From an uncultured Clostridium sp. (GTDB lineage Bacteria; Bacillota; Clostridia; Lachnospirales; Lachnospiraceae), in NCBI GenBank assembly GCA_900541315.1, contig UQJF01000028.1, positions 1 to 26,281 of the forward strand: 26,281 nucleotides of DNA. The letters run 5' to 3'. The stretch's first letter is position 1. Every line of letters begins with the position of its first letter. Of the stretch, positions 13,100 to 20,506 are shown in pieces. Below the pieces are notes generated by a model. That model was not told the DNA's origin. It searched no databases and saw only the letters and a list, made by a program, of their open reading frames with translations. The position numbers were made by a program, and so were the translations under genes.

Positions 13100-13861
13100 A
13101 TGGAAAATAAAGTAAAGATCTCCACACAGGATCTGAATCTGTATTATGGAGAAAATCATGCATTGAAGAATATCAATCTGGATCTTTATGAAAATAAGAT
13201 CACCGCATTTATAGGACCATCCGGATGTGGAAAATCTACCTATTTAAAGACATTAAACCGTATGAATGACCTGGTTTCTAATGTAAAGATCGACGGAACC
13301 GTGCTTCTTGACGGAGAGGACATTTATGATCCCCAGGTAGATACTACTCTTCTTAGGAAAAAGGTGGGAATGGTATTCCAGCAGCCCAACCCATTTCCAA
13401 TGAGCATTTATGACAATGTAGCTTACGGGCCAAGGATCCACGGCATCAAGAATAAAGCACAGTTAGATGAAATCGTAGAGCGCAGTTTAAAGGGCGCAGC
13501 TTTATGGGATGAGGTTTCTGACCGTTTAAAGAAGTCAGCACTGGGACTTTCCGGTGGACAGCAGCAGCGTCTGTGTATTGCGAGAGCACTGGCAGTAGAG
13601 CCGGAAGTTCTGTTAATGGATGAACCTACATCTGCCCTGGATCCTATTTCTACCTTAAAGATTGAGGATCTGATGGATGATCTGAAGAGTAAATATACAG
13701 TTGCCATTGTTACCCATAATATGCAGCAGGCAACCCGTATTGCAGATTATACAGCATTTTTCCTGGTAGGCGAGGTAGTAGAGTATGCTACAACAGACGA
13801 ACTGTTTACCATGCCAAAGGATAAGAGAACGGAAGATTATATCACAGGACGTTTTGGTTGA
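13100..13861 (+). CDS. pstB: PstB, phosphate ABC transporter ATPase
   Basis: A 253-residue ATPase that powers phosphate import, close to the usual 250-260 residues. Walker A is GPSGCGKST at residues 39-47. The Q-loop is in [17 protein letters not shown], a PstB-specific sequence. The ABC signature is LSGGQQQR, Walker B is [13 protein letters not shown] and the switch histidine is in [13 protein letters not shown] at 13087-13091 lies 8 nt before the ATG and the gene is 11 nt after pstA. All catalytic motifs are intact, so the operon should encode a working transporter. Confidence 0.97.
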
Positions 13862-13941
13862 TAGTATATGATCCGGTGTGGGATTGCGAAAATGCAAAGT
13901 TGTAAAAATGTTTGAAAAACAACAGAAAGGGGAATGCCGGG

Positions 13942-14598
13942 ATGCGCATTACTTATGAACATGAATTAGAGGAGCTGAATAAATGCCTGCGGGATATGGC
14001 CATGATGGTGGAAAAAGCCATTGAACAGACTTTTGTGGCATTTGAAGACCAGAATTATACCATGGCAGAGGACGTTATTAAAGGAGACCGGAATGTAAAT
14101 GACATGGAACGTGCCATCGAGTCCCGCTGCCTGTCACTGATCCTTCGCCAGCAGCCGGTAGCAAAGGATCTGCGCCAGATATCTACAGCCCTTAAGGTGG
14201 TAACAGATCTGGAGCGTATTGGAGATCATGCATCAGATATTGCAGAGCTGATCTTAAGGATAAAAAGTGACCATGCCTATCACATTGTACAGCATCTTCC
14301 AGCTATGGCAGCCTCAGCCCAGAAAATGGTTCATGACGCGGTAGAAACATTTATTAAGCAGGATGTGGAAGAGGCAGAGGAGATCATCCGCAGAGATGAT
14401 GAGGTAGATGCACTGTTCAATCAGGTAAAAACTGATGTGGTGGAATTATTAAAGTCTTCTCCTTCTCATGCAGATCAGGGGATCGACCTGCTGATGATCG
14501 CCAAGTATTTAGAGCGTATTGGGGATCATGCAGTAAATGTATGCGAATGGACCCAGTTTTGCAAGACCGGTGCACTGAAAAATGTGCGTATTATGTAA
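13942..14598 (+). CDS. phoU: PhoU, phosphate signalling and Pst regulator
   Basis: A 218-residue all-helical protein, the usual PhoU length. The two tandem three-helix repeats each contain a LERIGDHA motif (near residues 90 and 190) whose acidic residues bind metal clusters. PhoU sits at the membrane, limits uptake by the Pst transporter and passes the phosphate status to the PhoR kinase where present; no phoR or phoB is in this window. The ATG at 13942 has GAAAGGGG (13925-13932) 9 nt upstream, so the in-frame TTG at 13912 was rejected. It ends the pst operon, 80 nt after pstB. Confidence 0.95.
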   Translation: MRITYEHELEELNKCLRDMAMMVEKAIEQTFVAFEDQNYTMAEDVIKGDRNVNDMERAIESRCLSLILRQQPVAKDLRQISTALKVVTDLERIGDHASDIAELILRIKSDHAYHIVQHLPAMAASAQKMVHDAVETFIKQDVEEAEEIIRRDDEVDALFNQVKTDVVELLKSSPSHADQGIDLLMIAKYLERIGDHAVNVCEWTQFCKTGALKNVRIM

Positions 14599-16485: not shown

Positions 16486-17208
16486 TTAAAAACCTAACAG
16501 GCATACGATAACCGGCAGGAATACAGCAGGAAGCAGATTTGTGATCTTGATCTTTGTTCCAATGGTCAGATTTAAACCAAGGGCAAAGATAAGGATAGAA
16601 CCGATACAGGAAAGGCGTCCGATCATCAGGTCGGTAAGATATGGCTTTACCAGGCCCGCAAGAAGAGTGATGCCTCCCTGGTAAATACCAATGGGAAACA
16701 TAGAAAATGCCACTCCAATACCCATGGATGCTGCAAAAACAATAGAAAGCACACCGTCCATAACGGCTTTTGTAAAGAGTATGGTGTAATCATGGTTTAA
16801 ACTGTCTTCAATAGAACCAACGATCGCCATGGCACCGATGCAGAAAACAAGGGAGGTGCTTACAAAGGCTTCTGTAAAGTTGGAAGTGGAAGCGCCCCTT
16901 GGAAGTTTGGATTTGACCCAGTCTCCCAGATTTTCCATTTTCTGTTCCAGATCCAGCCACTCTCCGATGGCTGCGCCTACGGCCATGCAGATGACTACGA
17001 CTAATGTGTCCTTGGTCTCAAAGGTAGTTCCCGATACATTCATCAGACCCTTGATAGCCCCTGTAATGCCTACAAAGATCAAACAAAGGCTAACTGCGCT
17101 GGAAATAGTAGTCTGCAGCCGCTTTGGAATACCATTTTTTAATAAAAGTCCCAGGCCGCTTCCTATAAGTATGGCAGCCATATTTACAAGTGTACCTAAG
17201 CCAGTCAT
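16486..17208 (-). CDS. DUF554 family membrane protein
   Basis: A 240-residue polytopic membrane protein with about seven hydrophobic segments. The N-terminus (TGLGTLVNMAAILIGSGLGLLLKNG) and the internal GAMAIVGSIEDSL and GGITLLAG segments fit DUF554, a widespread family of putative transporters without a proven substrate. The start is at 17208, where GTGAGG lies about 8-9 nt upstream on the minus strand; the frame is open for 19 more codons, but that part has no ribosome site and codes for an atypical Cys-rich stretch. It is the first gene of a probable two-gene unit with the DeoR-type regulator, which may control it. A plausible promoter is TTGTTA-17-GATATT, just upstream. Confidence 0.85.
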   Translation of the reverse strand: MTGLGTLVNMAAILIGSGLGLLLKNGIPKRLQTTISSAVSLCLIFVGITGAIKGLMNVSGTTFETKDTLVVVICMAVGAAIGEWLDLEQKMENLGDWVKSKLPRGASTSNFTEAFVSTSLVFCIGAMAIVGSIEDSLNHDYTILFTKAVMDGVLSIVFAASMGIGVAFSMFPIGIYQGGITLLAGLVKPYLTDLMIGRLSCIGSILIFALGLNLTIGTKIKITNLLPAVFLPVIVCLLGF

Positions 17209-17372
17209 ATGTAAAACCTCACAATATCTCAATGTGTTTTGAAAATAACAAGGACATATTACCATATTTTTAGGGAGATGGGAATAAAGATTTAAGAGAA
17301 AAGAGGGGGCTATACAGCGGTCGGACTGGCAGAAAATACAGGAAAAATGGCGGTTTGGGAAGATGCCTGGGG

Positions 17373-17401
17373 TTTACAGTGTCCGTCAGAGCAAGTATAA
17401 T
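17373..17401 (+). promoter_or_regulatory. Predicted promoter of the apt leader
   Basis: TTTACA (17373-17378) and a perfect TATAAT (17396-17401) are separated by 17 nt. Transcription would start near 17408, about 15 nt before the first helix of the structured leader and about 209 nt before the apt ATG. The region between the DUF554 start (17208) and this promoter shows no other feature apart from the DUF554 promoter. Confidence 0.7.
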
Positions 17402-17422
17402 AATAGTGATTGCGCACCATAG

Positions 17423-17584
17423 ATGAAAGTCAGTTGTTACGTGCCGCTGGCACTCCCACAACTGCCGCCAGTATTCGTAATCCGGGCTGTCGCCCTGCTT
17501 ACTCATACCGGCTTGGTTGCCAAATGTCTATGGTTCCTTGCGTGCAAGCACGCAGTCCCCATAGCCGCTTGGCAACACTTTCAT
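17423..17584 (+). ncRNA. Candidate structured RNA (four-way junction) in the apt leader
   Basis: Four nested helices fit together with few unpaired bases. P1 pairs 17423-17430 with 17577-17584 (8 bp, perfect). P2 is 17431-17464: a 7-bp outer stem (17431-17437/17458-17464) and a 5-bp inner stem with triloop. P3 covers 17467-17512: GTAT/ATAC and GTAA/TTAC around a 2x2 internal loop, a 3-bp base (17467-17469/17510-17512) and a GGGC/GCCC tip. P4 is 17516-17576: 8-bp, 6-bp and 6-7-bp stems with internal loops. P2 starts on the base after P1 and P4 ends on the base before it. A promoter lies 15 nt upstream. It is a candidate cis-regulator or small RNA; it matches no riboswitch known to the annotator, and no T-run terminator follows it. 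Confidence 0.55.
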
Positions 17585-17616
17585 AGTAAATAATTTAAAG
17601 AAACGAGGATATAAAT

Positions 17617-18141
17617 ATGAAAAAGCTGGAAGAATATGTAAGAAGCATACCTGATTTCCCGGAACCTGGCATTATTTTCAGGGATGTAACCACCATCCTT
17701 CAGGATGCAGACGGCCTGCACCTGGCAGTGGACAGCATCCGCAACATGTTAAAGGATGTAGATTATGATGTAGTAGTAGGCCCTGAATCCAGAGGATTTA
17801 TCTTTGGTGTGCCGGTTGCCTATGCAGAGCACAAGGGTTTTGTACCGGTCCGTAAAAAGGGCAAATTGCCATGTGAGACTGTTTCAGTAAAATATGCCCT
17901 GGAATACGGCACCGCAGAGATCGAGATGCACAAGGATTCTATTATTCCGGGACAGAAGGTGGTTATTATCGATGACCTGATCGCTACCGGCGGTACTACA
18001 GAAGCGATCATTAAGCTGATCGAAGGCCTTGGCGGCAAAGTAGTAAAGATCTGCTTTGTAATGGAATTAGCAGGTCTTAAGGGAAGAGAGCTTTTAAAAG
18101 GGTATGATGTAGATTCTGCCATTATTTATGACGGAAAGTAA
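17617..18141 (+). CDS. apt: Adenine phosphoribosyltransferase
   Basis: A 174-residue purine-salvage enzyme that makes AMP from adenine and PRPP in the cytosol. It is a little shorter than the 183 residues of E. coli Apt. The N-terminus (IPDFPEPGIIFRDVTTIL) is specific for Apt, GPESRGFIFG lies near residue 50, and the PRPP loop VIIDDLIATGGTT is at about 112-124. ACGAGGA (17603-17609) lies 7 nt before the ATG. The gene follows a structured leader of about 200 nt and precedes rel, as in many clostridia, where purine salvage and ppGpp metabolism are neighbours. All key residues are present. Confidence 0.96.
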   Translation: MKKLEEYVRSIPDFPEPGIIFRDVTTILQDADGLHLAVDSIRNMLKDVDYDVVVGPESRGFIFGVPVAYAEHKGFVPVRKKGKLPCETVSVKYALEYGTAEIEMHKDSIIPGQKVVIIDDLIATGGTTEAIIKLIEGLGGKVVKICFVMELAGLKGRELLKGYDVDSAIIYDGK

Positions 18142-18185: not shown

Positions 18186-18220
18186 GATAACTAATTATTC
18201 GTAAAAAGGTGGCCACATAT

Positions 18221-20506
18221 ATGGGAAAAGAGGGAACAAAAGAAAAACTGGATATAGAGCTTGAGGCTCCGGCGGACTTTACCAGTCCGGAAGTATTGTA
18301 TCAGGATCTGGTAAAGACAATCCATAAATATCATCCTTCCGATGATATTTCCATGATCGAAAAGGCATATAAGATCGCAGCACAAGCCCATAAGGATCAG
18401 AAGAGAAAGTCCGGAGAGCCTTATATCATCCATCCTTTATGTGTGGCTATTATTCTGGCTGATCTGGAGATGGACAAGGAGACCATTGCAGCAGGACTTT
18501 TACATGACGTAGTAGAAGATACGGTCATGACACTGGATGAGCTGACTAAAGAGTTTGGACCAGAGGTTTCTTTTCTGGTAGACGGCGTTACAAAGCTGAC
18601 CCAGTTAAACTGGGATAAGGATAAAGTGGAGATCCAGGCAGAGAACCTGCGAAAGATGTTCCTTGCTATGGCAAAGGATATCCGGGTCATCATCGTTAAG
18701 CTGGCAGACCGTCTTCACAATATGCGTACCGGTCAGTACTGGAAGCCGGAAAAGCAGAAGGAAAAAGCAAGAGAGACCATGGAGATTTATGCTCCTATTG
18801 CAGACCGTCTGGGTATTTCCAAGATCAAGATCGAATTAGATGACTTATCACTTAAATTTTTAAAGCCGGAAGTCTACTATGACCTGGTAGAAAAGGTAGA
18901 TCTGCGTAAAGATGCCAGGGAAGCCTTTGTCCAGTCTATTGTAGATGAAGTAAAGGCACATTTAGACGAAGCAGGTATTGAAGCTACTGTAGGCGGCAGA
19001 GTAAAGCACTTTTTCAGTATTTATAAGAAAATGTTAAAGCAGAACAAGACTCTGGACCAGATCTATGATCTTTTTGCTGTTCGTATTATGGTAGATACGG
19101 TAAAGGACTGTTATGCGGCACTTGGTGTGATCCATGAAATGTACAAGCCGATTCCTGGTCGTTTTAAAGACTATATCGCTATGCCGAAGCAGAATATGTA
19201 CCAGTCTCTGCATACAACTCTGATCGGCAGCACAGGACAGCCATTTGAGATTCAGATCCGTACCTATGAGATGCACCGTACTGCTGAATATGGTATTGCT
19301 GCTCACTGGAAATACAAAGAGAGCGGAAGCGGACAGGTTGCTGCAGGAAAAGAAGAAGAAAAATTAAGCTGGCTGCGTCAGATCCTGGAATGGCAGCGTG
19401 ATACAGATGATTCCAAAGAGTTTTTAAGCATGGTAAAGGGTGATCTTGATCTGTTCTCTGACAGCGTTTACTGCTTCACCCCATCTGGTGATGTAAAAAC
19501 TCTTCCAAGCGGCTCCACACCTATTGATTTTGCTTATTCTATACACAGTGCAGTGGGAAATAAGATGGTTGGCGCAAGAGTCAACGGAAAACTGGTTCCT
19601 ATTGAATATCAGATCCAGAATGGAGACCGTATTGAGATCATCACCTCCCAGAATTCCAAGGGACCAAGCCGCGACTGGCTGAAAGTGGTACACAGCACAC
19701 AGGCTAAAAATAAGATCAATCAGTGGTTCAAGACCCAGATGAAAGAGGATAATATCATCCGCGGCCGTGACGCCATTGACCGTTATTGTAAAGCAAAAGG
19801 CATTAATCTGTCGGAACTTTCCAAACCGGAATTTATGGAAAAGGTAATGAAACGTTATGCCTTTAAGGATTGGGATTCTGTGCTGGCATCTATCGGACAT
19901 GGCGGCCTGAAAGAAGGCCAGGTCATCAACAAGATGTTAGAAGAACGGGAGAAGAAGCTAAAACGGGAGATCACGGATACAGAGGTTTTAGACGGTATTG
20001 CTGATACTGACGGAAGAAGCGGTGAAGCTACAGTCCGTAAAAATAAGAGCGGGATCGTGGTCAAAGGACTTCATGATCTGGCAGTGCGTTTCTCCAGATG
20101 CTGTAATCCGGTACCTGGTGATGAGATTGTTGGTTTTGTTACCAGAGGAAGAGGTGTTTCCATTCATCGTACGGATTGTATCAATGTGATCAACCTGCCG
20201 GAAGATGAAAGAGGAAGACTGATTGATGCAGAGTGGCAGGTAGAGGAAAATCCTTCCAGTACAGAGCAGTATTCCACAGAAATCCAGATTTTTGCAAACA
20301 ACCGGATCGGTCTTTTTGCAGATATTTCCAAGGTATTTACAGAAAAGCAGATCGATATCACTTCCATGAACGTGCGCACCAGCAAGCAGGGTCGTGCGAC
20401 GATCATTATGACCTTTGATATCCATGGAACAGAGGAACTGAACCGTATTACAGATAAGATCCGCCAGATCGACGGTGTTCTGGATATCCAGAGAACCACC
20501 GGTTGA
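18221..20506 (+). CDS. rel: Bifunctional (p)ppGpp synthetase/hydrolase Rel
   Basis: A 761-residue long RelA/SpoT homologue. In order: an HD hydrolase domain with an intact LLHDVVEDT motif (near 91-99), the RelA/SpoT synthetase domain (YDLFAVRIMV near 281, then RFKDYIAMPKQNMYQSLHT), a TGS domain (about 406-470), a helical region, a zinc-finger-like domain with CCNPVPGD near 626 and a C-terminal ACT domain (about 684-761). Both active sites look complete, so it should make and degrade the stringent-response alarmone and sense uncharged tRNA on the ribosome. AAGGTGG (18206-18212) lies 8 nt before ATG 18221; the in-frame GTG at 18209 is part of that site and was rejected. It is followed after 59 nt by the MBL hydrolase gene. 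Confidence 0.95.
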   Translation: MGKEGTKEKLDIELEAPADFTSPEVLYQDLVKTIHKYHPSDDISMIEKAYKIAAQAHKDQKRKSGEPYIIHPLCVAIILADLEMDKETIAAGLLHDVVEDTVMTLDELTKEFGPEVSFLVDGVTKLTQLNWDKDKVEIQAENLRKMFLAMAKDIRVIIVKLADRLHNMRTGQYWKPEKQKEKARETMEIYAPIADRLGISKIKIELDDLSLKFLKPEVYYDLVEKVDLRKDAREAFVQSIVDEVKAHLDEAGIEATVGGRVKHFFSIYKKMLKQNKTLDQIYDLFAVRIMVDTVKDCYAALGVIHEMYKPIPGRFKDYIAMPKQNMYQSLHTTLIGSTGQPFEIQIRTYEMHRTAEYGIAAHWKYKESGSGQVAAGKEEEKLSWLRQILEWQRDTDDSKEFLSMVKGDLDLFSDSVYCFTPSGDVKTLPSGSTPIDFAYSIHSAVGNKMVGARVNGKLVPIEYQIQNGDRIEIITSQNSKGPSRDWLKVVHSTQAKNKINQWFKTQMKEDNIIRGRDAIDRYCKAKGINLSELSKPEFMEKVMKRYAFKDWDSVLASIGHGGLKEGQVINKMLEEREKKLKREITDTEVLDGIADTDGRSGEATVRKNKSGIVVKGLHDLAVRFSRCCNPVPGDEIVGFVTRGRGVSIHRTDCINVINLPEDERGRLIDAEWQVEENPSSTEQYSTEIQIFANNRIGLFADISKVFTEKQIDITSMNVRTSKQGRATIIMTFDIHGTEELNRITDKIRQIDGVLDIQRTTG

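Follow-up and report, generated by a model that had tools for sequence, protein, structure and literature searches.

In the window (the whole 26,281-nucleotide stretch of DNA that was analyzed), apt, which encodes a phosphoribosyltransferase with a PF00156 domain match, lies at 17617..18141 on the + strand, downstream of a promoter, TTTACA-17-TATAAT (17373..17401, +), that matches at 11 of 12 positions. A DUF554 protein is encoded before apt on the opposite strand. A RelA/SpoT protein (18209-20506, +) follows directly 3' of apt, and after it come metallo-beta-lactamase-fold, radical SAM, and histidyl-tRNA synthetase-like proteins. The leader between promoter and gene holds an inserted element of 177 bp (17409..17585, minus strand) whose relatives occur in two forms, A and B; the window copy is of form B.

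The Rfam scan of the whole window returned RF01699 (Clostridiales-1) as its single match at cut-off, on the minus strand at 17424-17583 and over model positions 1-166, with 116.3 bits versus a cut-off of 48 (E 3.6e-26). The same model gave 12.2 bits on the + strand, which reverses the strand assigned in the initial annotation. No purine riboswitch, T-box, or other Rfam leader matched at the model cut-offs within the window, in agreement with the earlier statement that the structure is neither of the first two. A model derived from form-B copies (R1) scored 162.1 bits on the window, which was itself part of the training set. On the + strand, positions 17408-17616 folded at -69.7 kcal/mol into P1 and three hairpins, with a z score of -4.42 that was equaled by 0 of 200 shuffles. 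For the 177 bases of the element, the minus-strand fold was -81.6 (z -6.72) versus -69.7 on the + strand (z -5.74); both strands fold because the helices are inverted repeats.

The minus-strand core (17424..17583, the full RF01699 model) is closed by P1, of which the 5' strand at 17577..17583 pairs with the 3' strand at 17424..17430 in the model alignment (96.9% of helix-1 cells paired). P1 encloses P2, a long hairpin with a GCUUGC loop (17516..17576; covariation helices 2 and 3 of the model alignment), P3, a hairpin with conserved inner loops (17467..17512; helices 4 and 5), and P4, a hairpin with one conserved inner loop (17431..17464; helices 6 and 7). The core is followed by a short 3' tail (17409..17423, minus strand). 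It contains TATGGTG, as do other form-B copies in their longer hairpin tails. In an alignment of 14 form-B copies on the Rfam pairs, 91.0% of the cells were paired compared with a shuffled mean of 75.3%, both sides had changed at 47 of 59 pairs compared with 22.0 after shuffling, and the covariation score was 0.517 versus 0.206; none of 500 shuffles reached any of these three values. Sliding the partner columns by 1-3 lowered pairing to 30-34%. All 14 copies left the same two model pairs (of 59) unpaired, both in P2. The high pairing and the covariation in excess of the shuffles therefore support the junction and its arms. With a score over the curated cut-off and P1 closing three covarying hairpins, the four-way junction that the initial annotation proposed for the apt leader is real, and it is a minus-strand copy of RF01699, full-length and with the same helices and inner loops as Clostridiales-1.

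To place this copy at the locus, we compared 80 related apt loci, whose apt proteins are 78-87% identical. In four of them (L005, L013, L014, and L077) the sequence comprised about 190-460 bases upstream, which still covers the leader. A search with the form-B model found the element at apt in 0 of the 80 loci; the sole match outside the window scored 24 bits and lay ~1.8 kb downstream of apt (L061). A scan of 11 of the related loci with all of Rfam at cut-offs found RF01699 in none. The initial annotation had named covariation and a location upstream of apt in relatives as the marks of a cis-regulator; the former was found and the latter was not.

The apt promoter motif was seen without the element in five of 10 inspected loci (L004, L006, L007, L008, and L011), so the promoter is apt's own and predates the insertion. 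Two promoter-like sites in a 601-base stretch, versus a shuffle mean of 1.4, are no excess; the call of a good promoter stands because the motif is conserved at apt of relatives, not by motif count. With 17409-17585 removed, the window reads TATAATAATAGTG-GTAAAT, and L007 and L011 read TATAATGTAGTG-GTAAAA, so that removal of the element restores the leader of these relatives. Read on the minus strand, TTTAC immediately precedes the element and CACTA follows it, and no base of the site was duplicated or deleted. The pentamer at its 5' end (17586..17590; GTAAA on the + strand) is kept without the element in both L007 and L011. This base-exact empty site is known from a single locus, by comparison with two relatives that have 10 bases in common with it across the joint; the leaders of L004, L006, and L008 do not define the joint.

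The element would thus have entered the leader in antisense orientation, 3' of the old apt promoter and 5' of the apt ribosome-binding site, and the leader transcript is the antisense of Clostridiales-1. The bases before the apt start codon were unpaired in one fold and partly paired when 24 more apt bases were included, and no terminator-like site was found within 17200-17800. The insertion lengthens the apt leader, and any putative effect on apt is probably incidental.

Scores over the RF01699 cut-off were obtained in 16 of 44 genomes reached via apt loci and in none of 14 control genomes. The family of G018 was sampled with 299 genomes, of which 130 passed the cut-off and 161 had a match with E no higher than 0.001. 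With that E limit, at least 49 matches were counted in G018, at least 44 in G041, and at least 93 in G234. These copy counts are lower bounds, as at most 49 candidates per genome were scored in the 44-genome scan, 106 in a 13-genome scan, and 9 in the 299-genome scan. By plain DNA comparison, the window copy matched in 14 of the 299 genomes, best in G234 at 81-82% identity; the 13 more deeply scanned genomes were chosen from these matchers, G018 excepted. The dispersed structured repeat that had been listed among the initial possibilities is therefore what the genomes contain. The copies described below were taken mostly from the top of the carrier score lists, not at random, and sorting by the form-A pattern divided 129 of them into 71 of form A and 58 others.

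By a crude gene call, both neighbors of intergenic copies ran in the direction of the element in 14 cases for form A and 22 for form B, and both ran opposite in 22 and 16, respectively. Divergent neighbors were found for 19 and 7 copies, convergent neighbors for 5 and 3, and 6 and 9 copies lay inside a called frame. No fixed regulatory layout was seen in these counts. Tandem copies were present at six loci (L115, L116, L152, L174, L246, and L252); those at L246, L252, L152, L174, and L116 are form-B tandems arranged head-to-tail, some with a common GTTTAC joint. Several contigs of G041 terminate within a form-A end, about 55-100 bases in, which is what near-identical repeats would produce in draft assemblies.

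Form A has defined ends. Its copies have starts of the kind TGATNNNNGGGTCAAAA, and the tail after the closing helix is typically a hairpin ending CCCCAACATCA, an inverted repeat of the start. Exact direct repeats of at least 5 bp flanked 45 of the 55 form-A copies with a recognized tail, compared with 2.0% of 2970 control pairings between flanks of different copies. Thirty-eight of the duplications were exactly 5 bp, the longest was 10, and the commonest target was A-TNNNA-T. No tail was recognized in 16 of the 71 copies, and no duplication in 10 of the 55 with a tail. Among 20 further copies, the pattern found a tail in 11, of which seven had duplications of 5 or 6 bp and one of the other four was mis-parsed; the nine without a recognized tail included all six from G310. 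These six (L411-L416) have form-A-type cores with another 3' tail, and further end types may exist.

We screened 34 transposase loci (PF00665 and PF01609) for form-A ends, which were found on both sides at L392 and as one end at L378. An IS1182-like element of 1855 bp in G010 has correctly oriented form-A ends, TGATGCCGGGGTCAAAA and TGATGCTGGGGTCAAAA (in full, TGATGCCGGGGTCAAAACA and TGATGCTGGGGTCAAAAGC), between flanks TATAA and TAAAA that are alike in four of five bases. Its transposase frame of 537 residues contains DUF772 and DDE domains; the closest family is IS1182, from which it differs in scoring 125.9 bits, under the NCBIfam cut-off of 270. L378, at a contig end in G030, has a right end near-identical to that of the G010 element; no relative of the transposase was found in G030. 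In G152, a transposase 58% identical to that of G010 lies between two TGATGTTGGGGTCAA ends, with TCAATA as the duplication. The usual form-A right end is TGATGTTGGGGTCAAAAG, and G152 itself carries form A. Six of 27 carrier genomes contained relatives of the G010-type transposase, of which some were fragments and one (G121) was a weak match. Three of the carriers (G081, G310, and G272) have one end each near transposase fragments, with GCGTCAAAAGG or GTGTCAAAAGG in place of the form-A GGGTCAAAAGG, so the IS and form A are without a common end there.

An end was counted as an IS end only where it was one of a correctly oriented pair next to a transposase, because single near-matches also occur in the background of the apt loci. 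Single end matches with up to 4 mismatches at L363, L371, and L387 were set aside against a background of 17 in 905,140 apt-locus bases; a looser end pattern with up to 2 mismatches occurred 35 times in the same bases. Form A thus shares the end TGATNNNNGGGTCAA and target duplications with the IS1182-like elements of G010 and G152, and both features of a MITE, inverted repeats matching those of an IS and target duplications, were found in it. As matching IS1182-like ends are present in two carrier genomes, form A looks like their MITE. The most plausible reading is that IS1182-like transposases, presumably acting in trans, mobilize form A as a MITE. The interior of form A, a covarying four-way junction, sets it apart from IS1182-family insertion sequences and from MITEs in general.

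An autonomous element with exact form-A ends was sought in G234, where 20 stretches of at most 2.6 kb next to unpaired ends contained none. Three of the stretches were much shorter and lay at contig ends, and no pair of ends was spaced for a transposase gene. Six of the 20 held short derivatives of 38-112 bp, three of them with an exact 5 bp duplication; both short derivatives found in G027 and G030 also had one. Five derivatives (L242, L243, L331, L332, and L337) of 38-72 bp have kept exact 5 bp duplications with no full RNA core. Such short derivatives are no proof that the core is dispensable, because deletion in place looks alike. Another 11 copies (L227, L228, L230, L234-L238, L240, L244, and L245) have an intact 3' end and a 5' side that is cut or rearranged at varying points; they were found by a 3'-end search, which any bias toward 5' loss may reflect.

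The window copy is of form B, which differs at its ends. The minus-strand ends of this copy are TATGAAAG and GCGCAAT, with no duplication at TTTAC/CACTA. Neither the inverted repeats nor the duplication of an IS1182-type MITE were found in it, and it lacks IS1182-like ends. In the alignment of 37 form-B starts, window included, TTTAC occupies positions -7 to -3 (T in 32 of 37, T in 35, T in 33, A in 31, and C in 32); it is followed by T and A, each in 28 of 37, and nothing is conserved further out. The ten form-B copies of G018 have a median identity of 94% and unrelated flanks. One of their sites was spanned by a single match in eight other genomes and is empty there, at a divergence too great to place the exact joint. 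No match crossed the joint at five sites in G234 and at one more in G018 among the 3 or 4 candidates scored per genome, a weak test. A stem preceded the insertion site in 13 of 43 form-B copies, three of which have the stem of the preceding tandem copy, versus 29 of 221 TTTAC sites and 5 of 21 TTTACTA sites in the same loci, copies included; the excess is too weak to claim insertion at terminators.

IS200/IS605-related palindromic elements of the REP/RAYT type have a fixed one-sided target motif, no target duplication, and a subterminal hairpin. The window copy likewise lies 3' of a fixed short motif without duplication, base-exact at one locus, and many form-B copies have a hairpin near the right end. 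Genes for a Y1 transposase (PF01797) were found in six of 10 carriers searched. They were absent from the other four (G181, G277, G295, and G010), all of which have form B, although these genomes may be incomplete. We therefore regard movement of form B as a palindrome-type element by an IS200/IS605-type single-strand (Y1) transposase, a variant of the mobile-element reading, as possible but unlikely, and our data neither support nor exclude an IS200/IS605 driver for form B.

Together, these data indicate that the feature in the apt leader is very probably a copy of a non-autonomous mobile element that has the Clostridiales-1 four-way junction as its body, and not a switch for apt. The Clostridiales-1 family would spread by transposition. 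Form A would do so with IS1182-like inverted repeats and duplications of 5 bp, sometimes longer, at A-TNNNA-T; form B would enter 3' of TTTAC without duplication, by a putative mover and at a site defined from one locus.

Two other readings were weighed against transposition. Rfam lists the family under the type Gene; sRNA, and a stand-alone small RNA gene that was incidentally amplified would account for the strong covariation and for an excess of G-U over A-C pairs on the Rfam strand. It would also agree with the paper of 2010 (Weinberg et al., PMC2864571), which rates Clostridiales-1 as probably RNA, not cis-regulatory, and not a switch. Against such a gene, no promoter is conserved upstream of the copies, conservation begins at the element end, that is, at the first base of P1 in form A or 7 bases before it in form B, and the form-A target duplications abut that end. 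The promoter that the initial annotation had assigned to a small RNA precedes apt in element-free relatives. A small RNA gene is thus improbable. A riboswitch-like or attenuator role on the + strand for apt and the purine/ppGpp genes, which had also been put forward, is consistent with the position between promoter and start codon and with the good fold of that strand, but it is highly improbable given an element present at this apt locus and at none of the 80 related ones, a model that fits the opposite strand, and other copies with unrelated flanks and both orientations to their neighbors.

On the mobile-element reading, what differs from Clostridiales-1 as described is that the structure here makes up the interior of a mobile element that is dispersed and has defined ends, and the "sRNA" family of 2010 is best read as a transposable element. 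Main-text passages of PMC2864571 on transposition, mobility, and repeats do not concern Clostridiales-1, and our literature search, whose coverage left out most subscription papers, returned no paper treating it as mobile. Rfam authors warn of MITEs behind plant miRNA families (PMC4383904). With the present assignment, an Rfam family of unsettled function since 2010 acquires an identity, and its copies should be annotated neither as sRNA genes nor as regulators of adjoining genes. The assignment also describes a gut-bacterial MITE family with an unusually strong, covarying secondary structure.

The two forms have a core in common. Form-A copies are recovered by the form-B-only model with E values down to 2e-23, and of 11 columns invariant over 22 copies of both forms, five lie in inner loops (A88, G101, G127, G144, and A146 in window-element numbering); thus, the core persists when the ends change. 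G-U exceeded A-C by 113:50 on the Rfam strand at 53 well-paired positions in 75 copies under 90% identity (22:11 in form A and 72:36 in form B). The excess has a p of about 9e-7 if cells are independent, which they are not. G-U pairs make up about 3% of cells, and the aligning model allows G-U and may lean the same way, so that the excess modestly suggests, and does not prove, that selection acts on the RNA strand. It is conceivable, if rather doubtful, that the core is a module that functions as RNA or single-stranded DNA and rides on two unrelated transposition systems, its fold being selected because the structure drives or controls spread. If so, one core would be combined with IS1182-like ends in form A and with TTTAC-directed ends in form B, and a fold needed for spreading would offer a tractable case of structure-guided transposition.

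Searches beyond these genomes gave no match in viral contigs with four form-B patterns and none in plasmids with the window copy. A form-A copy matched nine unannotated faecal "Bacteriophage sp." records, the best being MT835871.1 at 13732-13946. Ten translated frames of element copies had no Pfam match over the curated cut-off and were rejected as real genes. The 58-aa frame of the window copy (17410-17586, +) has relatives in three clusters of predicted proteins, at 98, 84, and 89% identity. All three start the frame differently from the window, with two types of start, and hence come from other copies of the element, bearing out the suggestion that the reverse reading might recur as a false gene.
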